Source of the DNA: Parapedobacter tibetensis
GTDB lineage: Bacteria > Bacteroidota > Bacteroidia > Sphingobacteriales > Sphingobacteriaceae
NCBI RefSeq assembly: GCF_024704835.1
Contig: NZ_JAMXBE010000004.1
Coordinates: 310,001-374,000 of the forward strand
Direction: 5' to 3'
Length of the DNA stretch: 64,000 nt
Shown here: positions 31,123 to 42,125 of the stretch, one piece after another
Layout of the letters: each line of letters starts with the position of its first letter
Numbering within the stretch: position 1 is the first letter of the stretch
The notes under the pieces: generated by a model
Seen by the model: the letters and a program-made list of their open reading frames with translations, nothing else
What the model was told of the DNA's origin: nothing
Databases searched by the model: none
Translations under genes and position numbers: made by a program

Positions 31123-32661
31123 CTAACGGCCAATAGCCAACAACAGCTTTTCATAGTCGATTTTGGAATGGTGGCGCGGGTCACGGGGGATTTTGCCTAC
31201 CCATCGGATAGCTACCAAGGGCGTTCCCTTAGCCAGGATGGCTTCGGTTATTTGCTGCTGCGATGCCTTTCTTTCTGTTTCCAAAACGGCAACGATGCTT
31301 CCATCCAATTCCACAATGGTTCCCATCACTACACCGGGTATACAGCGGAACTTATGCTCATAGACAAAAGGTGACAATAGCTGACCTTGATGCCAAATCA
31401 AGGTATTACAACGCCCGGTAAGGTACAGTTGGTCGTCGGCAGCCAGGTAACCGCTGTCTCCTGTACGGTGCCAGCATTTCCCCTGCACAAAAATCTTATT
31501 GCGTGCGAGTGCCTCCGGGTTATCGTAATATTCGGAAAGCACATGCGGGCCGGCAACGATAATCTCTCCAATGGTTCCTGTTGGTTGTTGCAACACTTCA
31601 AGCTCCTGCTCATTGTTGCATAGCATAGATTCGTCTTGGATACGCATGATACGTACTTCGGTTTTATGGAAAGGCTGCCCCACCGGGAGTCCGTCGGTCA
31701 ATGATCGCTGTTGAGCAAGCGTATCGGCCCCAATGCTGCTGATGGGTTCAACCTCTGTAGAACCATATACAATTTTAATACTGGTGTTTGGGAAGGCGTT
31801 AACCAACACTTGCACCTCGTTGGGGAAAACAGGTGCGCCACCGGTAAATATTTTCTTAAGATGTGGTAAATCTGCCCCTCGGTTGATGCCATAGTGAGCT
31901 AGTTGCATGGCGAAAAAGGGTGATGCGGTCATCCGATTCACCCGGTATTTTCCCATCAGCTTCCATATCTTGGGGCTATCCATTTTATGGGCTTTATTGG
32001 CACGGTAAGGAACAACGACAGAAGTAGCACCGGCTGCGAGATTCACCAATAACATAATGGGGAGAATGGTTACATCCACATCCATTGGTTGGGGCTCCAT
32101 TTCATCGTTCAGCGCATTAAATTGCTCCCAAAGAAATCCATGGGCGCGTTTGGCGGCCTTGGGTGTACCCGTACTCCCTGTAGTAAAGGTGATGAGTGCC
32201 GCATCCGTTGAGCCTACCGCTTCCAATTCATCAGTCTGTCCCGCCTTCCAGCGGGAGACCGTACCCAGTCGAATAGGTATTTTCCGCAGTTCCATGGAGA
32301 AATGTGCATATATGCGCGCCTTGAGTATCCCGACGAATCCTTTGCACTGGGCTATCCGGCAACACAGCTCCATCCGTTCCTTATTTACCCATTCATCGAG
32401 GAAAACGGCGGTGGCCCCGATGTGGAAAATAGCCAGCACCGTTCGGTATAATGCAATACCCATGGGTACAAACACTAAAATGCGGTCGCCCTTGCCCAAT
32501 CCTTTATACCGAAGCCACATAGCGGTTTGTCGCACATCGCGCGCCAATTGCGCATACGTTATCCGGTCGCCACCATGAATGATGGCCACATGGGTTGGGT
32601 ATTGCTCGGCGGCCTTGTGAAAAAGCCGCGCAATGTTGTGGAGTGCGGAATAACCCTTCAT
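31123..32661 (-). CDS. AMP-dependent acyl ligase, OleC-like
   Basis: An ANL-superfamily enzyme of 512 residues. The ATP-binding motif TFTTGSTGTPKAAKR is near residues 159-173, VYGSTEVEPIS is the A5-like motif, and HRTGDSGYL is the A7/A8 region. The end IPRDPRHHSKIDYEKLL resembles the DxRHNAKI ending of OleC-type ligases, which make beta-lactones from beta-hydroxy acids, rather than ordinary acyl-CoA synthetases. The ATG at 32661 follows the upstream stop by one base (TAGCATG), so it is coupled to the Gfo/Idh/MocA-like gene. Substrate unknown; plain fatty-acyl activation remains possible. Confidence 0.75.
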   Translation of the reverse strand: MKGYSALHNIARLFHKAAEQYPTHVAIIHGGDRITYAQLARDVRQTAMWLRYKGLGKGDRILVFVPMGIALYRTVLAIFHIGATAVFLDEWVNKERMELCCRIAQCKGFVGILKARIYAHFSMELRKIPIRLGTVSRWKAGQTDELEAVGSTDAALITFTTGSTGTPKAAKRAHGFLWEQFNALNDEMEPQPMDVDVTILPIMLLVNLAAGATSVVVPYRANKAHKMDSPKIWKLMGKYRVNRMTASPFFAMQLAHYGINRGADLPHLKKIFTGGAPVFPNEVQVLVNAFPNTSIKIVYGSTEVEPISSIGADTLAQQRSLTDGLPVGQPFHKTEVRIMRIQDESMLCNNEQELEVLQQPTGTIGEIIVAGPHVLSEYYDNPEALARNKIFVQGKCWHRTGDSGYLAADDQLYLTGRCNTLIWHQGQLLSPFVYEHKFRCIPGVVMGTIVELDGSIVAVLETERKASQQQITEAILAKGTPLVAIRWVGKIPRDPRHHSKIDYEKLLLAIGR

Positions 32662-32662
32662 G

Positions 32663-33763
32663 CTACAATAGGATACGTTTGCCACGCTTGGCAGACTCTT
32701 TCGCCGCTTGCAGGATTTCTACGACAAGGAGGTTGTTGGCAAGTGAAGATAAGTCATTTGTTGGTTTCGCATCACCATCCAGGACTGCCTTTAGATAAGA
32801 AAAGTGTTCTGTATAATACCCATCCTTCAATGGAACGTTTTCTTGTTTATGGGGGTTAGTATAGGCACGCAATATGTTTTGGTCTACGGCATGAAGCGAA
32901 GCTTTTTCACCATATATGTGTAAATCCTTGATGCTATAAGGCCAATCCCATGAAGCTTGGATGATTCCGGTTACCCCTCCTTCATACTCCAACATAATGG
33001 TGGCATCGTCATCCACGAGTGGATACACCATTGGCTTCAATTGCCGGGTTATGGCCGTAACGGCCACAGGTCGCTCGCCATTCATCAACCAGGTCATCAG
33101 GTTAGCACCATAGCATCCAAAATCGACCAATGCACCGCCCCCATTCTTATCTGGGTCCGTCAACCATGTCAAAAATGCCTCACTACAACCGATTTCTCTC
33201 GGACCCTGGTGTCCATCTTTTACCATTATTTTTTTCAGCTGTCCCACCCTGCCTTCATCGATCAATTGCTTCAGGGTTTGGTTGCTGGGATACCAAGTCG
33301 TTTCGTAGTTGGTCAACACATACGTATCATGCTTTTCTGCCAAAGCCGCTATCCGTCTTGCCTGCTCGTTGTTTATCGCTAAGGGTTTCTCCACCATTAA
33401 GGGTATTTTCAGTGGCAAACATACTTCGGCGACATCAACATGTTCTGAAATGGCATTATATGCCAAAACCACATCGGGACGAATGTTTTGTAACATGCCA
33501 TCAACTGTTTTGAAGAACAACGAATCGGGCAACTTATAGGAACCTTGATAATGGCGAGCCAATTCTGCATCTGGTTCCGCAATTCCTAAAATATCAACTT
33601 GATGACGATTATATGCATTGAACAGGGCATGTACATGATCGTGACTTAACCCAGCTACCGCTACTTTCAGGGGATCCTGGGCAAACGCTTGGTTGAAAAA
33701 CAGTAAAAAAAAGGTGAAAAACAACCTATTAAAATAGCAAGCTGGCATTATCCTTGTATCCAT
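32663..33763 (-). CDS. Secreted Gfo/Idh/MocA-type oxidoreductase
   Basis: A 366-residue protein with a signal peptide (FFTFFLLFFNQAFAQ) followed by an NAD(P)-binding Rossmann domain starting VAVAGLSHDHVHALF, the EKPLAINNEQA segment near residue 140, and GGGALVDFGCYGANL near 210 in the C-terminal domain. Members oxidise or reduce sugars and related compounds; exported members are common in Bacteroidota. It is directly followed by the OleC-like ligase. An internal ATG at codon 6 is an alternative start. Confidence 0.85.
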   Translation of the reverse strand: MDTRIMPACYFNRLFFTFFLLFFNQAFAQDPLKVAVAGLSHDHVHALFNAYNRHQVDILGIAEPDAELARHYQGSYKLPDSLFFKTVDGMLQNIRPDVVLAYNAISEHVDVAEVCLPLKIPLMVEKPLAINNEQARRIAALAEKHDTYVLTNYETTWYPSNQTLKQLIDEGRVGQLKKIMVKDGHQGPREIGCSEAFLTWLTDPDKNGGGALVDFGCYGANLMTWLMNGERPVAVTAITRQLKPMVYPLVDDDATIMLEYEGGVTGIIQASWDWPYSIKDLHIYGEKASLHAVDQNILRAYTNPHKQENVPLKDGYYTEHFSYLKAVLDGDAKPTNDLSSLANNLLVVEILQAAKESAKRGKRILL

Positions 33764-33904: not shown

Positions 33905-34447
33905 ATGAAGACCATAAATAGTTACACGTTGATTGCCTGCATAGGTATACTGACCATTTTGAATCAAGCATGCGGCCCCAAAAAATTAGCGGTTCAGCCT
34001 GCTGCCGAGGTGGTGGAAAAAGTACAGGAAGAACCCGTTAAGGTAGAAGAAGAGAAAAAGCCTGTTATGGAAGAAGCGCCGCGTGAACCCGTTGCTGTAG
34101 CTCCACCAAATTATAATTTCAAAAATATCCAGTTTGAATACGACTCCCATGTGTTAAAAACCGAATCTTATGCGATTCTTGATCAAATAGCAAGGGAAAT
34201 GATGAAGGATTCGGACGCCAAATTTATCATCGATGGCCATGCTTCCATAGAAGGTACGGCAGCATATAATATGGAACTATCTATAGATAGGGCGAATGCT
34301 GTTAAGCTGTATCTGGTAAATTCAGGTATTCATGGAAATAACCTGGCGACCGACGGCCACGGCGCAACCAAACCCACTGCTTCCAACGATACGGAAACGG
34401 GAAGGGCGACCAATCGTCGTGTTGAAATTAGGCTCGTGGGTCAATAG
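33905..34447 (+). CDS. OmpA-family lipoprotein
   Basis: A 180-residue lipoprotein (lipobox ending NQAC, Cys 23). A short acidic/proline-rich linker leads to an OmpA C-terminal peptidoglycan-binding domain (about residues 75-178) with IQFEYDSHVL, IIDGHAS and TNRRVEIRLVG. It probably anchors the outer membrane to the cell wall. Its 3' end overlaps the end of the convergent GNAT gene by 20 bases. Confidence 0.9.
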   Translation: MKTINSYTLIACIGILTILNQACGPKKLAVQPAAEVVEKVQEEPVKVEEEKKPVMEEAPREPVAVAPPNYNFKNIQFEYDSHVLKTESYAILDQIAREMMKDSDAKFIIDGHASIEGTAAYNMELSIDRANAVKLYLVNSGIHGNNLATDGHGATKPTASNDTETGRATNRRVEIRLVGQ

Positions 34448-35456
34448 ACATCCCATATAACACATATTCTTTGTAGGTTTCACTCCTAAAATTGCGGGAA
34501 ACGGTGGTTGCATCGCCTTCGTTAATGATGAATGCGTGGATGATGGATTGATATCCCGTACCTTTAGCTAAACGGGTAACGCGGTTGACCAATACATGTC
34601 CAAGTCCGGCATAGGCCTTGTCTTCATGGCGGGCAAGGGTTTTGATGATTAATTTTTTGTCTCCTTGTGCATACGCATCATCATAGCTGAAAATAAACCC
34701 CACCACTTCCCCGTTCCTGTTTTCAGCCAAAAGCACATATTCGGGATTAATCATGGGCAATGCGGCCCGGTACTTGGAAATAAACCTATCTAAATCAATT
34801 GGGGTGTACAAGAAATTATGTTGAAACGCGTGGCCAATAAAAGCATGTAAGTTATTAAGTTCTTCGTCGATTCGATTGATGTCAATGCCTCGTATGGTAA
34901 CTCCTTGTTGACTAAACTCCCGTTCTTTAGCCAACAGGGTAGACCCGTCACACATTAACTGATCATCTTTATTGGAGTTGTACCGCTTGATAACCTCAAA
35001 ACCATTAATCATAAATTGCTCATTATAATAAAGGTAGTGGTAGGGTTCCAATAGAAAAGGTGGCTCTCGGTGGGATACACTGAAGCGGTAATTGTCCCAA
35101 GTAGAGCCGTTCATGGGGCCTATGAGGTAAGTGCCCCCCTGCTGACGCACGTCCCAACATACTTTTTCCAAAAGTGATTTAGCCGCTTCATTTTCATCAA
35201 CACATTCATAATTGCCTATCATCCAAGGATTATGTACCCCATAACTCAATTTATCTTGCATGTATAATGCTGCCCTTCCACTTGGTTTCCCGGCTACCAA
35301 CACGACATAGCAACTGTGCAGTATGGCCAAATTGATGTGCTCAGATTCCTTGTGACGAATGCTATCTGGAGGGTATAGTGTTTTCGCTACTTCCGTGAAC
35401 AAATGGAAATCTTTATCAGTAGGATAGGTTTTGATAACCTCAATTGGTTTCTTCAT
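34428..35456 (-). CDS. GNAT-like acyltransferase, last gene of the isoprenoid operon
   Basis: A 342-residue protein with acyl-CoA N-acyltransferase features. The best segment is the C-terminal half, with EYVLLAENRNGEVVGFIFSYDD and a helix beginning GLGHVLVNRVTRLAKGTGYQ. The N-terminal half (1-170) is a second, diverged GNAT-like region with VVLVAGKPSGRAALY and LIGPMNGSTWDNYR. It lies 54 bases after the kinase-like gene on the same strand and is probably the last member of the operon starting with HMG-CoA reductase. It could acylate an amino group on the pathway's product, which is inference. Confidence 0.65.
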   Translation of the reverse strand: MKKPIEVIKTYPTDKDFHLFTEVAKTLYPPDSIRHKESEHINLAILHSCYVVLVAGKPSGRAALYMQDKLSYGVHNPWMIGNYECVDENEAAKSLLEKVCWDVRQQGGTYLIGPMNGSTWDNYRFSVSHREPPFLLEPYHYLYYNEQFMINGFEVIKRYNSNKDDQLMCDGSTLLAKEREFSQQGVTIRGIDINRIDEELNNLHAFIGHAFQHNFLYTPIDLDRFISKYRAALPMINPEYVLLAENRNGEVVGFIFSYDDAYAQGDKKLIIKTLARHEDKAYAGLGHVLVNRVTRLAKGTGYQSIIHAFIINEGDATTVSRNFRSETYKEYVLYGMSIDPRA

Positions 35457-35510
35457 TCGTAAATACGTATTAATTTCTTCATTAGCTTGCTATTCGCTAT
35501 AGCAAACCAA

Positions 35511-36191
35511 TTAGGCTAACACATGTTCGGCAAGTGCTAAGCCTACCCATACAGCCGCCGGTATCGTTACATTATCAAGTCCCCTACTGCTCCAAGATTC
35601 GGCTAAAGTGGCTAGCGTGGCGACCAGTGCCGCCACACTAATAAAATACCCTATCGTGGGGAAATTCCCAAGGTAGCGATACACCCCAGCGGTTACTAGG
35701 ATAGCAGCAAAGAAAAAGGCAGCTGAACCGCTGATGGTCTTGATTCCTGTGCCTACTCGGTATAGACCAAATCGGTACTTGCGACCTATATAAGCCGCTA
35801 ATGGGTCACATATTGCCAACACCAATACCGGAAGGTAGTAGTATACGTATTGCCTATCGTGGTACTCATAGGCTAGGAAACTTCCATACACGGCAATGGG
35901 GTATCCAAGGCTGCCGTATGATTTGCGCCGTATACCATTTATGGATTGCAACAAGCCCGTACGTAAACTCAAGAGAAGCAGCAAAGCGAAAATACTGCAT
36001 AGTAGCAGTACCTGCCAATGGTTATTCATGATGATGGGGAATAGCAAGGCTAGTAAGCCTGTACCAATATGGACTAGCTTACGGGTGCTCTCTGCATTGA
36101 CCTTAAAGACATGATACAACACTTCAGCCATGGTAAACAAACCTAGATACGCCCCAGACATTGCCAACATATTCCACATACTGCTACCCAT
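35511..36191 (-). CDS. Dolichol/phytol kinase-like membrane enzyme
   Basis: A 226-residue membrane protein with about seven hydrophobic helices. RKLVHIGTGLLALLFP near the N terminus and LAICDPLAAYIGRKYR near the middle are the landmarks of the CTP-dependent polyprenol/phytol kinase and phosphatidate cytidylyltransferase-like superfamily (VTE5, dolichol kinase). It should phosphorylate or nucleotidylate an isoprenoid or lipid alcohol. The start is ambiguous; the ATG at 36191 overlaps the upstream stop by eight bases (ATGGGTAG) with a GAGGAGG sequence just before it. It sits in the operon between the BtaA-like and GNAT genes. Confidence 0.75.
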   Translation of the reverse strand: MGSSMWNMLAMSGAYLGLFTMAEVLYHVFKVNAESTRKLVHIGTGLLALLFPIIMNNHWQVLLLCSIFALLLLLSLRTGLLQSINGIRRKSYGSLGYPIAVYGSFLAYEYHDRQYVYYYLPVLVLAICDPLAAYIGRKYRFGLYRVGTGIKTISGSAAFFFAAILVTAGVYRYLGNFPTIGYFISVAALVATLATLAESWSSRGLDNVTIPAAVWVGLALAEHVLA

Positions 36192-37275
36192 GTGCCTCCT
36201 CCACAATGAACCGTTCATAAAAGAACCCCTTATCTGACTCCGTCAAACGCGTGGACAATTCCGATAAGTAGGTCAGCTTATCGGGGAATACCGAAGACAC
36301 CCTACGCGGCACCATCAGGTTCCAATAGGCCATTTTGCCCTTGGGGTTCAAACCATCGACCAACCGATCGGCAACTTGTCTAAACGTATCCGTATCCATG
36401 TATTCAAAGATATTGGAAAGATTCATATAATCCACACGCCCAAACTTATCCAATGCATCCTCTGCATACCCTTCAAACACTTGGAGCCGATGTAAATTGG
36501 GGATAATCCGTATATAATTCTCAGGCAATAGGTAATGTGGCAGAAAATTACCAAAATTACCAATGAGGTTATAATGCAGCATGAAATTATGTTGAGCGGC
36601 TACCGTCGTCAAGTGCCTTTCGGCCCGATTGAAAATGGTGCTGCCCACTTGCACTTCTACCTCTTGTAAGAACGCTGGGTCGCGCCCAAACCGTCCCATC
36701 ACAGCTTTACTGAAGAACAACTTGAAAAACAGCCGCCATCGCCATGTGTTCCATTTATGGTGATAGAAGTCGGTCTGGATAGCTGCTGGTTTGGGCGACA
36801 GTAATTTTCTAACCGTCCGTTTTGAATGAATCCAAGGCAGCACATACTGGTTGAACAGCTGGAAATACCTTTCGAATTTGCCTTGTGTAACGACACCTTT
36901 CCGAATCAAGTCGGGTTTGGTTTTCCAATAGTTGAACACGTCTTCCGGCAAATAGGATTTAAGGCGTTCCAACGTCTGGAGTCGCTCGTTGCATGGTCGG
37001 AAACCAAAAAAAAGCAGGACCTCGCCATAGGATAACTGCTGCATGGCGATCCTTTTCAACTCCAGTAGCGCTAATTGCGTTCCACTGAGGTCCACTGCAA
37101 TGACCTGCTCGGGATTAGTTGACAATAACGAAAAACTATTATCGCCCGCAGACGCAATCGACAAGATCCGGCTACCCTCGCGGGATCCCAGGCCGCTCAA
37201 CAGTACATCCGCATCTTCCCAACAATTGGCATAGCGCAATACGCTGAAATCTGCACGATTACTAATTGACGTCAT
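36184..37275 (-). CDS. DUF3419/BtaA-like aminocarboxypropyl transferase
   Basis: A 363-residue protein of the DUF3419 family, whose characterised member BtaA moves the 3-amino-3-carboxypropyl group of S-adenosylmethionine to diacylglycerol in betaine-lipid synthesis. Landmarks are NCWEDADVLL near residue 17, the methyltransferase-like motif ILSIASAGDNSFSLL near 38-52, AVDLSGTQLALLELK near 60-75, and VDYMNLSNIFEYMD near 280. The start overlaps the upstream stop as ATGA. No BtaB N-methyltransferase is present, so the product may keep a free amino group. The acceptor here could be an isoprenoid glycerolipid, by context. Confidence 0.82.
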   Translation of the reverse strand: MTSISNRADFSVLRYANCWEDADVLLSGLGSREGSRILSIASAGDNSFSLLSTNPEQVIAVDLSGTQLALLELKRIAMQQLSYGEVLLFFGFRPCNERLQTLERLKSYLPEDVFNYWKTKPDLIRKGVVTQGKFERYFQLFNQYVLPWIHSKRTVRKLLSPKPAAIQTDFYHHKWNTWRWRLFFKLFFSKAVMGRFGRDPAFLQEVEVQVGSTIFNRAERHLTTVAAQHNFMLHYNLIGNFGNFLPHYLLPENYIRIIPNLHRLQVFEGYAEDALDKFGRVDYMNLSNIFEYMDTDTFRQVADRLVDGLNPKGKMAYWNLMVPRRVSSVFPDKLTYLSELSTRLTESDKGFFYERFIVEEAHG

Positions 37276-39890
37276 AAGGCTTCTCTAATTAACCTAATTT
37301 CTCCTGTGCTGCCATCCATTTCCACCTCGTCGCCCGTCTTCAGCCTTTTTAGCAAACCGGTTACCCCCACGATACAGGGTTTGCCCATTTCCCGAGACAC
37401 AATGGCCGAATGGCTGAGGAGGCTACCCCGTTCTACAATAATGCCCGATGCACTGGGAAACAGGGTAGTCCATCCCGGATCAGTGCTGCTCGTAACCAGA
37501 ATATCCCCTTCGAGCGATCCGACTTCTGTAGGATCCAGCACAACCCTTACCTTTGCCTTCACTCGCCCCGGACAGCAACCAACACCATGCAAATCGCCCA
37601 CGATAATGATTTCCTTATCGCTATTATATATATCATTGGCATGGTATACTGGTCCATATGTAGCAAAGCGTTCGGCAGGTACCGACTGTTGCCGATAAGC
37701 CTCAAATTCGGCCTTACGCAATGCGATCAGCACCTTGATGTCTTCCATGATGGAACGCCCGTCGATATAAGCAAAGATTTCTTCCATACCAAGGTAAAAA
37801 ATATCACCTTTCTGTTCAATAATCCCGTTGGCATGAAACCACCCACCCATATGGGTGAAAATTTCCCGCACGATGCCGAAAGCACGAGTACGCTCATAGC
37901 GCAGGTTTTCCCTCGCACTCACCAAGCTACGCGTACGTCGAAGCAACCAGCCAAACGCTAATTTTTTCAATGGTTTTCCTTTCAATGCTTCGGCAATCTG
38001 TTGCTCCGCGTCGCCACGCAGTCTCTCTTCCACATCACTGTTTACCTTATCGGCGGTTATGCCTCCCTTCACATAAGATTGGAGCAATTTGATGAACAAC
38101 GCAGGTTGCTGTGTATAGGACACGGTTTCAAGCTTCAGTTCGCCCACGCAACGTTCTCCAAAATCATGGATATATACATCAATCAATGCTTTCAGTTCTT
38201 TTTCGGCGAGGCCATTCGCCATTTGCAGTTGCCGCCATATCACACTAGCTTCCTGTGTAAGGAAAAGCGATTTCAGTCCGTCAGTGGCACAGATCTGGTC
38301 GGCAAGCGCGATGCACCTATGGATGGGTTGTGTGGAGATGATATCGGCACTGCCACACAATAAATCGTTATGGATATTGGGATAGTTGTCGCCCACCAAT
38401 TTATGGCATTGCTTTTCAAGTGTTCCAAACGCAATCATGGCAAAGAAATCGTTCAGCAAAGGGGCTTTCCATTCGTTCAACAACCGGTGTTCGAAATGGA
38501 GATACAGGTGCATCAGCTCATTGGCGTCTTTACTGGAAAAATCCACCGCTTTATACTCGGCGATGGTCTTGTTGAGCAAGCGAATAAATCGTTGACGGGT
38601 CCATGGCAGGAAAATAAAACGCCCAAGCATCTTTAGGCCCATTTTAAATATGGCCCACCATGCTCCAAGCTTTGAAAGCCGGTAGCTTTCGGGAATATCA
38701 AACCGCTCCTTTACGCCCATCATTTTTTCCATATAACGGGCATTAATGCTATAGCCTGGAAGCATGGCCAACATATGGTACCACGTTTTGAGGTTGTAAT
38801 AAATCCGGCCCTTGATTAGCCCAAGCGTATTGGCAAATACATGGCCATGGTGTCCTATCATCCCGCTACTTACCCCAAGGTAACGGCAGAAAAGTTTGTA
38901 GGCTCCTTCATAGGATTTGCTAACAAAAGAGAATGTGAGGGGTGTGGTGACACCGGGATAGGACTCAATGATATTGCTGTTGTCCCATAAGATATATTCC
39001 CCATCTCGATTAGACAGGTTTTCCAAATTGGTTACCGGACGGACTTGCAACAAGTACAAAGTGTCATCTGCAAAAGCAAACTCGATATCAAGCAGGGTTC
39101 CATAGTGTTGTTGGCATCGATCGAGCAAGTGGCATACCTCACGCACTTGCTTCGTATCCAGCGAAGATACCTGATGTAGCTGAGGCTCCACTTCTTCCAT
39201 GTGTGTACCGCCGCCATTCTCCCAGTCCAAGGTAAGCCGCTGGGTCTTATTCGCAATGCTAACTTGGATATCATCACCATTGACAATATACTGGTCTGCA
39301 TCCAATGCTCCGGAAACCAACCCCTCTCCCAGTCCATAAACCGCATTGATTACGTTTTCTTTTCTATTACCTGTGACCGGATTGACGCCAAATGCCACAC
39401 CAGACACTTCCGCCGGCACCATCGCCTGCACAATGACGGCGATGCTTTGAACGGGCTTCTCCCCACGATGAAGGGCATATTGCCTCGCCCGATCGCTGAA
39501 TGCCGAGCTCCATACTTTTTTGATGTGAGTATCTAGGCTATCTCTGGTAACGAAGAGGTGCGATTCAAACTGCCCGGCATAGGAATGGTGCTCACCATCC
39601 TCTTCCACGGCCGAAGAGCGCACGGCAAGGAAAAGGTTGTCGGGAAAATAATCGGTAACCTGCTTTAGTGCCCACTCTGGAATATCTGCATCTTGGATGT
39701 ATGCCCGTAACTCTTCCAAAGGCATTTTCTCATAACCAAAAGGCAACCGATTTACCAGCTCATTGGCGGGAATGACCACCCATCGAGGGATGTTGAGACC
39801 GGCTTCCCCCAATAGGTGGAGGTTGCTGGCCTTACCTCCAATGTGGTATTGAAGCAATGCTTCGTGCTGTATGTCTCTGATGATGATCAT
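37272..39890 (-). CDS. PEP-utilising phosphotransferase, rifampin-phosphotransferase-like layout
   Basis: An 872-residue enzyme. Residues 1-290 form the ATP-binding domain of the PEP-synthase type (GGKASNLHLL, FLAVRSSAVEED, LLQVRPVTN). Residues about 300-760 are a large helical domain of the kind that binds the substrate in rifampin phosphotransferases. Residues about 770-865 are the swivelling phosphohistidine domain, with GSLLSHSAIVSREMGKP and catalytic His near 827. The C-terminal TIM barrel of true PEP synthases is absent, so pyruvate is unlikely to be the substrate. The ATG at 39890 overlaps the UbiA stop (ATGA); the longer upstream frame is inside ubiA and is not used. Confidence 0.8.
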   Translation of the reverse strand: MIIIRDIQHEALLQYHIGGKASNLHLLGEAGLNIPRWVVIPANELVNRLPFGYEKMPLEELRAYIQDADIPEWALKQVTDYFPDNLFLAVRSSAVEEDGEHHSYAGQFESHLFVTRDSLDTHIKKVWSSAFSDRARQYALHRGEKPVQSIAVIVQAMVPAEVSGVAFGVNPVTGNRKENVINAVYGLGEGLVSGALDADQYIVNGDDIQVSIANKTQRLTLDWENGGGTHMEEVEPQLHQVSSLDTKQVREVCHLLDRCQQHYGTLLDIEFAFADDTLYLLQVRPVTNLENLSNRDGEYILWDNSNIIESYPGVTTPLTFSFVSKSYEGAYKLFCRYLGVSSGMIGHHGHVFANTLGLIKGRIYYNLKTWYHMLAMLPGYSINARYMEKMMGVKERFDIPESYRLSKLGAWWAIFKMGLKMLGRFIFLPWTRQRFIRLLNKTIAEYKAVDFSSKDANELMHLYLHFEHRLLNEWKAPLLNDFFAMIAFGTLEKQCHKLVGDNYPNIHNDLLCGSADIISTQPIHRCIALADQICATDGLKSLFLTQEASVIWRQLQMANGLAEKELKALIDVYIHDFGERCVGELKLETVSYTQQPALFIKLLQSYVKGGITADKVNSDVEERLRGDAEQQIAEALKGKPLKKLAFGWLLRRTRSLVSARENLRYERTRAFGIVREIFTHMGGWFHANGIIEQKGDIFYLGMEEIFAYIDGRSIMEDIKVLIALRKAEFEAYRQQSVPAERFATYGPVYHANDIYNSDKEIIIVGDLHGVGCCPGRVKAKVRVVLDPTEVGSLEGDILVTSSTDPGWTTLFPSASGIIVERGSLLSHSAIVSREMGKPCIVGVTGLLKRLKTGDEVEMDGSTGEIRLIREAL

Positions 39891-40849
39891 GTACTCCACA
39901 ATAATTGTTGTACCATGGGAATACCTCCCAATGAAAGATACATGGCGATGGTCCAAAGCCCTGAACTGACCTCAATACCCTTGGCCGCCCGTGCCGATTG
40001 ATTGCGAACAAAAAACACCGCGGGCACTATACACAACCCGAAGGTTACGCTCAATACCACAAATGCCTGCAGGCCATATCCGGCGTAATGTGCTGCGACG
40101 ATGGCCAAGACCAGGGTTACCAAAAGCATTCCCATCCATAGTACCGGGGCTCGTCTTGTACCCAGTTGATGGGTATAGGTCAGTACACCCGTTTCTTCAT
40201 CTTTTGGCGCCCTGATTTTCCGCCCTACTTCCAATACAATACCATTCATATAGGATACGGCAAAGAAAAACAATAATCCTTTTGGGGCAGCGACCCCTTC
40301 CAACAACCAATCTAGTCCACTTGCATAGATATCAATGAGCGGGATGATAAACATATGGGAAGTAACATACCAAAACTGATGTTTCTTGAGCCAGTCAACA
40401 ATAAAAAACTCTTTGCCCATCAGGCATAGGTAAGCCATCACTGCTATATAGATGATTAGCATCTTAGGCAAAAACCACGCGTTAAGACCTATTTGAAGCA
40501 ATATCACCATCACCCCTACCTTGCGCAGCTCACGCAAGGTTATCAATCCCCGGGGTACGGGCAGCGACTTACGATAACGTGCATCATCTTCGGCATCCTT
40601 GTGCTCATCGAAAATACGGACCAGCAGGAACAATGTCACGGTGGTAACTACGCCAATGAGGAATGTTTCCCAAGGGATGAAGCCCGACACGCCCCTGCAT
40701 ATCCGGGAATACGACACCGCTGAAAAGCTGAATGCCACCACCAATAGCCCATGCCCCAACAACGGGAAACGTTCTTTTTGGTAGCGATAAAGCCTATGCA
40801 ATAAAGGCAAGCTGTTTTCCTCTTTATTTCCGTTCATCGCGACTTCCAT
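39887..40849 (-). CDS. UbiA-family prenyltransferase
   Basis: A 320-residue membrane protein with about eight to nine hydrophobic helices. The first Asp-rich motif is FDEHKDAEDDARYRKSLP near residues 79-96, and the second region is RKIRAPKDEETGVLTY near 215-230. UbiA enzymes transfer polyprenyl diphosphates to aromatic or glycerol-phosphate acceptors. The gene starts one base after the HMG-CoA reductase stop (TGACATG) and its stop overlaps the next start (ATGA). The context suggests a lipid or quinone acceptor; archaeal-type digeranylgeranylglyceryl phosphate synthases belong to this family, but sequence alone does not decide. Confidence 0.82.
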   Translation of the reverse strand: MEVAMNGNKEENSLPLLHRLYRYQKERFPLLGHGLLVVAFSFSAVSYSRICRGVSGFIPWETFLIGVVTTVTLFLLVRIFDEHKDAEDDARYRKSLPVPRGLITLRELRKVGVMVILLQIGLNAWFLPKMLIIYIAVMAYLCLMGKEFFIVDWLKKHQFWYVTSHMFIIPLIDIYASGLDWLLEGVAAPKGLLFFFAVSYMNGIVLEVGRKIRAPKDEETGVLTYTHQLGTRRAPVLWMGMLLVTLVLAIVAAHYAGYGLQAFVVLSVTFGLCIVPAVFFVRNQSARAAKGIEVSSGLWTIAMYLSLGGIPMVQQLLWST

Positions 40850-40850
40850 G

Positions 40851-42125
40851 TCAGCTTTTCTTCCGTCCTAAATCCCGATGTGCTGAGGTGAAATGCCCTG
40901 CCGACAATGCAGCGGCAATGGATAATTCACCGGCTAACAGCAATGCTCCGCATATCTCAGCAAATTTATTGGCCTTACCGGTCCCATAACAATCCATGAG
41001 TTCAAGGCATTCGCGTTGGGTGGGTAGTGTGGTGCCACCTCCTACAGTTCCCACGATAAGGTTGGGTAAGGTAATACTCGCATATAAGGAGCCATCCGTA
41101 TTGCATTCCATGCGGGTAATTCCTGTGGCGGCTTCCGCCACACAGGCCACATCCTGTCCGGTGGCGAGAAACAAGGCTGCCAAGCCATTCGCATAGTGCC
41201 CTTGGGCACCGATGGCTCCGCTTTGGATAACCCCAATGGTAGAGGTACGCCAGTAATCGTCCATCGCTTGGGATGTTGTCTTCAGTACGTTTTCCACTAA
41301 AATTGCGGGAAGTACAATTTCAGAAGTCACCTTTTTGCCCCGAACATGGGTAAAAGACAGCGCTGTAGCTTTCTTATCGCCTGAATAATTGCTTTCAATG
41401 TACCATGCCACGGGTTTTATCGGGCTATTGGCTACGATATGTTGGCAAATCGCGTCCGTGCAGAGCGTTACCATATTCTGTCCGGAAGCATCACCGGTAT
41501 AATATTCGAAAACAAGGGTAAGGTGGTTACCTTCTATATTGGCTTTGATATCTAGCAACTGTGCATACCGGCTTGTTTTCACTGTAATCTCTTGGAACGT
41601 ATTCAGATTGGGCAATACCCAAGCCAAAAATTGGCCTAAATCTGCCAAATTTTCAAATTTGAATGCCGGGCAACGTTGCACCGCTTCGTTGGTACATACC
41701 GATGATGCGCCACCTGCAAGGTAGCAAACCTTAGCCCCGCGGTGGAACGAAGCAACCAACGCACCCTCCGTGGTGGCTAGTGGCACATAGAAATCGCCTT
41801 TGGCTTCAATGCCGGCAACCCGCAGTGGCCCCACGACGCCGGTGGGTACAGCCGTCATGCCGATATAATTTTCGATATGCCCCTCCAATAAGCCAAGGTC
41901 TACCAATTGATCTTGTTTGCTTAGGAAGATTAAGTTCTTACCTGTTTCTTCCTGGAGCATCGCCAATCGATCAGCCGACCCTTTGGCATCTACATGGTCA
42001 TCGATTTTAAGCCTGAATTCCTTGGGTGGCATTGCCTTTACTTCATCCTGATGGCTGCTGAACTGCGCAATCATAGCTAGGTATTTCCGTTGGAGGGCTT
42101 CTTTATTTTCGGTAATTGATTTCAT
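40851..42125 (-). CDS. Hydroxymethylglutaryl-CoA reductase, class I-like
   Basis: A 424-residue HMG-CoA reductase. Motifs are ENYIGMTAVPTGVVGPL (85-101), LATTEGALVAS with Glu 120, GDASGQNM (211-218), SGDKKATA with the catalytic Lys near 251, GQDVA with Asp 325, IVGTVGGGTTLPTQ (357-370) and SAGHFTSAH with His 416. The GTVGGGT and DKK segments resemble the class I NADPH enzymes. It makes mevalonate from HMG-CoA. It is the first gene of the operon. No other mevalonate-pathway gene is in the window; many Sphingobacteriaceae use the MEP route instead, so a dedicated role is possible. Confidence 0.93.
   Translation of the reverse strand: MKSITENKEALQRKYLAMIAQFSSHQDEVKAMPPKEFRLKIDDHVDAKGSADRLAMLQEETGKNLIFLSKQDQLVDLGLLEGHIENYIGMTAVPTGVVGPLRVAGIEAKGDFYVPLATTEGALVASFHRGAKVCYLAGGASSVCTNEAVQRCPAFKFENLADLGQFLAWVLPNLNTFQEITVKTSRYAQLLDIKANIEGNHLTLVFEYYTGDASGQNMVTLCTDAICQHIVANSPIKPVAWYIESNYSGDKKATALSFTHVRGKKVTSEIVLPAILVENVLKTTSQAMDDYWRTSTIGVIQSGAIGAQGHYANGLAALFLATGQDVACVAEAATGITRMECNTDGSLYASITLPNLIVGTVGGGTTLPTQRECLELMDCYGTGKANKFAEICGALLLAGELSIAAALSAGHFTSAHRDLGRKKS

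Follow-up and report, generated by a model that had tools for sequence, protein, structure and literature searches.

What does a 3-hydroxy-3-methylglutaryl-CoA reductase (HMGR), normally the marker enzyme of isoprenoid supply, do within an operon of lipid-type genes when its host lacks an ordinary mevalonate pathway around it? A stretch of 64,000 nucleotides from Parapedobacter tibetensis, order Sphingobacteriales, raises this question (RefSeq assembly GCF_024704835.1, contig NZ_JAMXBE010000004.1, positions 310,001 to 374,000; hereafter the window, with positions counted from its first base). Here, an HMGR-like gene is followed on the minus strand by genes for a UbiA-type membrane protein, a dikinase-like protein, a BtaA-like protein, a kinase-like membrane protein and a GNAT protein. 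We find that these genes belong to a seven-gene block with a fixed order in Bacteroidota, whose product is probably an aminolipid. As a tentative proposal, which we hold at somewhat less than an even chance, the seven enzymes make up a Bacteroidota pathway not described so far, in which mevalonate serves directly as a building block of an amino-acid-bearing lipid.

A seven-gene block with a fixed order

A sequence-only reading of the window had described six minus-strand open reading frames, from 42125 down to 34428, as one unit that might make an unusual isoprenoid lipid. The sequence bears out these coordinates and the junctions: TGACATG between HMGR and UbiA, ATGA between UbiA and dikinase and again between dikinase and BtaA-like gene, an 8-base overlap (ATGGGTAG) of the latter with the kinase-like gene (DKL), whose start lies at 36191, and a 54-base gap between DKL and the GNAT gene. 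However, the block consists of seven genes, the missed member being an AMP-forming acyl ligase (ACSL):

40851..42125, minus strand: gene 1, HMG-CoA reductase-like protein (HMGR; PF00368)
39887..40849, minus strand: gene 2, UbiA-superfamily membrane protein (PF01040)
37272..39890, minus strand: gene 3, dikinase resembling phosphoenolpyruvate (PEP) synthase and rifampicin phosphotransferase (PPDK_N and PEP-utilizers)
36184..37275, minus strand: gene 4, BtaA-like protein (DUF3419, PF11899), candidate aminocarboxypropyl transferase
35511..36191, minus strand: gene 5, DKL, membrane protein with a CDP-diacylglycerol (CDP-DAG)-synthase/dolichol-kinase-like fold in a predicted model
34428..35456, minus strand: gene 6, tandem GNAT acyltransferase-like protein (predicted model and Foldseek)
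31126-32661, minus strand: ACSL, AMP-forming acyl ligase, the seventh member, displaced in the window (PF00501)

For DKL, the start was taken as 36191 (the longest open reading frame starts at 36218), and for ACSL as 32661 (the longest frame extends to 32685).

A protein search found the BtaA-like protein in 8 of the 201 genomes of the order, the window's included, representing two of its 15 genera and two of the six genomes of the window's genus. All seven other block genomes carry the six genes together and in the same order, and in the seven relatives of the order that were fetched first, an AMP-forming ligase directly follows the GNAT gene. The window's ACSL is 47-54% identical to the protein in this position (7/7 loci). 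We then scanned the species-genome collection with an eight-row BtaA alignment, which gave 373 stretches, 306 of them relatives; all counts over 80 loci below rest on the best 80 of these 306 (44-56% identity), with gene presence scored by tblastn. By label, 79 of the 80 loci come from Bacteroidota groups, including Sphingobacterium, Dyadobacter, Saprospiraceae, Fluviicola, Chitinophagaceae and Cytophagales, and one (L090) is labelled 'bacterium' only. All seven genes are present in 45 loci (contig ends cut many of the remainder), and every one of these 45 shows the order HMGR-UbiA-dikinase-BtaA-DKL-GNAT-ligase on one strand. As order and strand are kept at 44-58% protein identity, the grouping is more than chance.

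Among loci with enough sequence, the dikinase is present in 65 of 67, UbiA in 60 of 63, HMGR in 48 of 58, DKL in 70 of 77, GNAT in 69 of 70 and the ligase in 60 of 61; loci short of sequence, which these counts leave out, amount to 13-22 of 80 for the upstream genes and 3-19 of 80 for the downstream ones. L044 is scored as lacking UbiA and HMGR solely through an insertion, which places UbiA past the distance limit, and a contig start at that point, and two loci (L061 and L096) hold BtaA alone, with no other member within the available sequence. The conserved order in complete loci and in the relatives of the order thus upholds the proposal of a single unit: the genes stay together across Bacteroidota rather than being rare neighbours, and the set did not dissolve into a housekeeping PEP synthase and menaquinone genes. 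The sequence-only reading knew of no described pathway with this gene set, and our search of open-licence papers likewise found no description.

A quick tree of BtaA-like proteins joins the window's copy to that of L010, from the same genus (support 98), rather than to the copies that Sphingobacterium, of the same family, carries. This placement suggests either horizontal transfer or an old duplication; the deeper forks are weak. The GC content of the block (0.44-0.49) is like that of its surroundings (0.39-0.49), so that base composition gives no sign of recent horizontal gain. A search of viral contigs with the BtaA-like protein gave no match.

Two further genes lie around the displaced ligase:

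32663..33763, minus strand: Gfo/Idh/MocA oxidoreductase, between GNAT and ACSL (Pfam; outside the block elsewhere)
33905-34447, plus strand: OmpA-family lipoprotein, convergent and outside the block (PF00691, 77.4 bits)

These two genes separate ACSL from the GNAT gene by 1.8 kb in the window. The 3' end of the OmpA gene is overlapped by the GNAT gene over 20 bases, and the ACSL start lies one base past the stop of the Gfo/Idh gene (TAGCATG). Loci L010-L016 have no Gfo/Idh gene between GNAT and ACSL.

HMGR without an ordinary mevalonate pathway

The window's HMGR matches PF00368 with 374.4 bits (cut-off 27) and carries the motifs ENYIG, DKK, GQD and AGHF, which we take to hold the catalytic Glu, Lys, Asp and His. 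Among 47 cluster HMGRs (one of them the APH-fusion form of L110), ENYIG is kept in 43, DKK in 47 and GQD in 46; the His motif is found in 28 or 38, depending on the pattern used, and is thus not invariant as written. In the order, HMGR occurs in 10 of the 201 genomes, namely the eight with BtaA plus G137 and G189.

The surrounding pathway is missing. HMG-CoA synthase (PF01154) was found in none of 14 genomes (eight with the block, including the window's, and six without; controls matched in 7 of the 14), and mevalonate-diphosphate decarboxylase exceeded its cut-off in none of them, with weak partial matches in five. Dxr, the marker of the methylerythritol phosphate (MEP) route, is present in all 16 genomes tested, and by this marker the host uses the MEP route. 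HMGR therefore feeds no ordinary mevalonate pathway, which leaves the earlier idea that it supplies isoprenoid chains unsupported. The likeness to the mevalonate pathway lies in the HMGR homologue; in these 14 genomes, however, HMG-CoA synthase and an over-cut-off decarboxylase were not found, and HMGR sits among lipid genes. The most economical reading is that the product of HMGR is used as such. The window's genome has two Dxr proteins over the curated cut-off (G000:C10:44565-45695 and G000:C45:23926-25062), compared with one in each of the 15 other genomes.

The phylogeny of HMGR points in the same direction. G137, G189 and a second locus of G177 contain a mini-module in which HMGR is joined by a CDP-alcohol phosphotransferase (CDPOH) and a CTP_transf_1 protein (CDS), with no UbiA, dikinase or BtaA beside it; G137 and G189 also have DKL. 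In a quick FastTree analysis, block and mini-module HMGRs form one clade (52/52, support 0.939), apart from stand-alone long HMGRs, APH-fused HMGRs and the mevalonate-pathway HMGR used as root. Through this shared clade, HMGR is associated with the chemistry of lipid phosphodiesters, rather than with the supply of prenyl groups. The stand-alone longer HMGRs form a separate tree group (L148:1307-2851, L149:8432-9979, L150:9373-10929 and L153:1599-3149), and the one of L148 carries a PF25653 N-terminal domain.

The UbiA-type protein and the archaeal-lipid question

The UbiA-type protein (PF01040, 41.7 bits; cut-off 34.2) is a putative prenyl-transferring enzyme. It keeps the first Asp motif, FDExKDxxxD, and has GRKI...E where the usual second Asp motif of UbiA enzymes would be. 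Its best solved-structure match is digeranylgeranylglyceryl phosphate synthase (DGGGPS; 6m31), at an E-value of only 0.2. This match would suit the isoprenoid glycerolipid of archaeal type that the sequence-only reading had in mind, in which HMGR raises isoprenoid supply, UbiA prenylates glycerol phosphate, and BtaA and GNAT finish the head group; so would a CarS-like gene (CDP-archaeol-synthase family) after ACSL in L105 (PF01864, 27.1 bits; cut-off 22), with a weaker match in L146. Such a pathway, however, lacks its key enzyme here: geranylgeranylglyceryl phosphate synthase (GGGPS; PcrB family, PF01884) was found in none of the eight block genomes of the order, while two of the 201 genomes matched at E 0.001, one of them over the cut-off and neither with the block. 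With the downstream mevalonate pathway not found and the MEP route present, we regard this explanation as improbable. The block resembles the archaeal ether-lipid pathway in its UbiA-type enzyme and, at some loci, in CTP-dependent and CDP-alcohol enzymes, but differs from it in the absent GGGPS and in the added DUF3419, GNAT and ligase genes.

A lipid-related neighbourhood around a UbiA-type protein is also a feature of the YfiM-1 Lipocone/UbiA system, whose partners, in the passages of its description considered here, are an amidophosphoribosyltransferase, a RidA-like deaminase and phosphoesterases (PMC12419801). Unlike the block, those passages feature no dolichol kinase, DUF3419 or BtaA.

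The dikinase-like protein

The dikinase-like protein has a PPDK_N domain (188.6 bits) at its N-terminus and a phosphohistidine domain (PEP-utilizers, 86.9 bits) with the motif GSLLSHSAI at its C-terminus, and a Pfam search at E 0.001 found no PEP-binding barrel family (PEP-utilizers_C). An ATP-binding domain first and a phosphohistidine domain last is the layout of rifampicin phosphotransferases. The nearest solved chains, 5hv2 and 5fbs, are labelled PEP synthase in the PDB table and are presumably rifampicin phosphotransferases. The NCBIfam PEP-synthase models all fall under their cut-offs (best 732.5 versus 883), and RIF_Ptrans_rph reaches 285.9 bits against a cut-off of 999, so that the resemblance to the latter is one of domain order alone. 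PigC (324.8 bits) and RedH (303.7 bits) are likewise far under their cut-offs. The domain content led us to discard a housekeeping PEP synthase, though that name is carried by the top NCBIfam model as well as by the solved chains. The protein thus shares its terminal domains with rifampicin phosphotransferase and PigC/RedH, but differs from them in its scores and in having lipid genes as partners.

The BtaA-like, DKL, GNAT and ligase proteins

DUF3419 is the family of the aminocarboxypropyl transferase BtaA of the betaine-lipid pathway to diacylglyceryl-trimethylhomoserine (DGTS). The block's BtaA-like protein matches it over nearly its whole length (PF11899, positions 4-382 of 385, 204.1 bits; cut-off 28.2), and the motifs YANCWED and SAGDN are invariant in the eight-row alignment. 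Beyond this shared protein, the block differs from the BtaA-BtaB pathway in adding six other enzymes, and no BtaB-type N-methyltransferase is encoded among the seven window genes. A methyltransferase was identified in L072 alone of the 80 loci, between BtaA and DKL (neighbours were not exhaustively screened).

DKL has no Pfam or NCBIfam match. Its predicted model (pLDDT 92.9) has CDP-DAG synthase 4q2g as best structural match (Foldseek E 0.19, probability 0.94; VIA Z 9.5 over 164 residues, a score that helical proteins can reach by common arrangement). As the Foldseek and VIA lists hold many unrelated helical proteins, only the rows for 4q2g and 5guf, a CDP-DAG and a CDP-archaeol synthase, were taken seriously. 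On this model, DKL is likely a CTP-using lipid enzyme, either a kinase or a cytidylyltransferase. The GNAT protein falls just under the PF00583 cut-off (18.9 versus 20.7 bits), and its predicted model (pLDDT 89.4) has a tandem GNAT fold, with Foldseek probability 1.00 to tandem GNATs (best 7q3a, E 1.5e-14). A CoA-loop pattern matched 17 of 65 proteins; it is too strict to judge the loop, and nothing was drawn from it.

ACSL matches PF00501 with 158 bits, and the ligase motif PRDxRHxSKIDY is present in 32 of 60 proteins and hence not invariant as written. Its best NCBIfam matches include the curated OleC beta-lactone synthetase models, although the scores are far lower than the cut-offs (176.2 versus 900 and 156.8 versus 850). 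These matches, and the presence of HMGR, two phosphotransfer-type proteins, a ligase and UbiA in one operon, would be in line with a new route from mevalonate to an isopentenyl unit, by ligase-driven decarboxylation and the cluster's own kinases, for use by UbiA. We consider this very improbable: the MEP route is already present, BtaA and GNAT would have no role, and DKL is absent from 5 of the 73 loci with GNAT.

Lipid enzymes that join the block

CDP-alcohol phosphotransferase genes accompany the block in 14 of the 80 loci, and CTP_transf_1 proteins in 13. The former take four positions: between HMGR and UbiA, ahead of HMGR in divergent orientation, between dikinase and BtaA, or past the ligase. 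Three of the seven relatives of the order (L012, L014 and L015) have both a CDP-OH_P_transf and a CTP_transf_1 gene between HMGR and UbiA. The CDP-alcohol step is an elaboration outside the core, because the window's genome has no match.

This recurrence of CTP_transf_1, CDP-OH_P_transf and CarS-like enzymes bears on whether the product could be a diffusible secondary metabolite instead of a membrane lipid, with the dikinase-like protein acting as a PigC/RedH-like ligase. The PigC and RedH matches, the patchy spread over 8 of 201 genomes in the order and a gene of the SRPBCC family (Polyketide_cyc2) in 16 of the 80 loci would agree with such a metabolite. The recurring lipid enzymes argue against it, as does the lack of a recurrent export or resistance gene among the neighbours, whose largest unlabelled families are SRPBCC and lineage-specific flanks, and we judge it unlikely.

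Sphingobacterium loci have a divergent regulator-like gene upstream of HMGR (e.g. L034:10682-11659, with a sub-threshold BetR match). Small membrane proteins without a Pfam match lie directly downstream of UbiA at L151:5861-6238 (126 residues) and directly upstream of it at L077:6119-6484 (121 residues).

Loci without HMGR or DKL

In nine loci, the block includes no HMGR on the same strand (L048, L081, L084, L086, L099, L103, L106, L110 and the split L073), and seven of their genomes have an HMGR elsewhere. For L073, a set HMGR-CDPOH-CDS-UbiA-dikinase lies elsewhere on the same contig (L151). Near full-length or long decarboxylase matches occur in 18 of 70 cluster genomes besides the window's (6 of 25 near full-length; 12 of 45).

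Five of the 73 loci with GNAT lack DKL (L041, L081, L099, L106 and L110). In the genomes of L041 and L110, HMGR is fused to a C-terminal APH-type kinase domain (PF01636), and the genome of L081 has a protein that, by our reading of its sequence, is built in the same way; for L099 and L106, the frames run out at contig ends. In the L081 genome, the neighbours of the HMGR-kinase fusion are a CDP-alcohol transferase, a protein with weak likeness to CarS and a distantly related pair of UbiA and dikinase. A kinase may thus replace DKL in some genomes, and UbiA and the dikinase look like a functional pair. The fusions are located at L110:3270-5579 and L147:20-2383, in genomes whose block has no DKL, and the distant pair, at L146:164-3868, shares 24% (UbiA) and about 31% (dikinase) identity with its counterparts in the block. 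At L110:9980-11893, a single frame of 637 residues comprises a BtaA-like part, the only one recognized by Pfam (as DUF3419), and a GNAT-like part assigned by eye.

Several observations weigh against mevalonate as the building block. HMGR scores 321.4 bits with the NCBIfam equivalog model TIGR00533, under its cut-off of 441.8, so that its substrate, which may differ, is one that we infer. Leucine breakdown is no more than a possible source of HMG-CoA: HMG-CoA-lyase-like proteins occur in all 16 genomes, each of them under the curated cut-off. A search of the window's genome for a CDP-alcohol transferase that might supply a missing step found none, so that this step is not part of the window's copy, and in the genomes of L084 and L103, both metagenome bins, the cluster is present and no HMGR was found. 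Finally, one association in favour of mevalonate is weak evidence: decarboxylases are more frequent in genomes without a cluster HMGR (5 of 8) than in those with one (7 of 38; 46 scorable loci, Fisher p 0.020, uncorrected for ancestry), but seven decarboxylase-bearing genomes retain the cluster HMGR, and four of the five decarboxylase-bearing loci without it form one clade (support 82 in the quick BtaA tree), so that perhaps two events lie behind the association. The HMGR found elsewhere in the genome for seven of the nine HMGR-less loci likewise speaks for mevalonate.

The equivalog score, the missing HMG-CoA synthase and the two genomes without HMGR would also be expected if the enzyme had changed its substrate and now turned another acyl-CoA into another alcohol, yielding an aminolipid without mevalonate. 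On the other side, ENYIG, DKK and GQD are kept in nearly all cluster HMGRs, and where a cluster lacks HMGR, its genome tends to have a mevalonate pathway or an HMGR elsewhere. We consider a changed substrate somewhat unlikely.

A proposed route to an aminolipid

From the gene set and its order, the host's lack of an ordinary mevalonate pathway around HMGR, the folds and the key motifs, we infer every reaction, the order of reactions and the product. HMGR would convert HMG-CoA, which probably stems from the breakdown of leucine, to mevalonate, and the latter would not proceed to isopentenyl diphosphate. The UbiA-type enzyme and the phosphotransferase-like dikinase would build or activate a lipid alcohol, to whose hydroxyl the BtaA-like enzyme would add the aminocarboxypropyl group of S-adenosylmethionine. 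ACSL would activate a carboxylic acid, either mevalonate itself or a fatty or hydroxy acid, for transfer to the amino group by the tandem GNAT, so that BtaA-like enzyme, ligase and GNAT together would form an N-acylated homoserine-type head group. DKL may act on the same lipid alcohol as a CTP-using kinase or cytidylyltransferase; together with CDS and CDPOH at the loci that have them, it suggests this alcohol as a shared intermediate. The amino-acid head group and N-acylation of the sequence-only reading are thus plausible, given the DUF3419 protein, the tandem GNAT fold, the AMP-forming ligase and the CDP-alcohol enzymes in other species.

A precedent for mevalonate serving as acyl donor comes from fungal siderophores, made with SidI and SidF (PMC3709128). 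The SidI/SidH/SidF route shares its logic with the block, in that an AMP-forming ligase activates mevalonate and an acyltransferase passes it to an amino group; the setting differs, and the likeness drawn here is one of logic. A bolder version of our proposal, which we think quite unlikely, would have mevalonate take the place of glycerol as backbone in a new class of membrane lipids. The UbiA-type enzyme would attach the chains, and the free primary hydroxyl would receive homoserine (BtaA) and then N-acylation (ligase and GNAT), or a phosphodiester head group in species with DKL, CDS and CDPOH.

If mevalonate is indeed a lipid building block, this would be a new branch of lipid chemistry in several Bacteroidota orders. 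HMGR is here part of a widespread operon whose hosts use another isoprenoid route, and annotation pipelines in which HMGR counts as evidence of a mevalonate pathway would then be wrong for these species. Cultured carriers in Sphingobacterium, Dyadobacter and Rhabdobacter make the product directly seekable.

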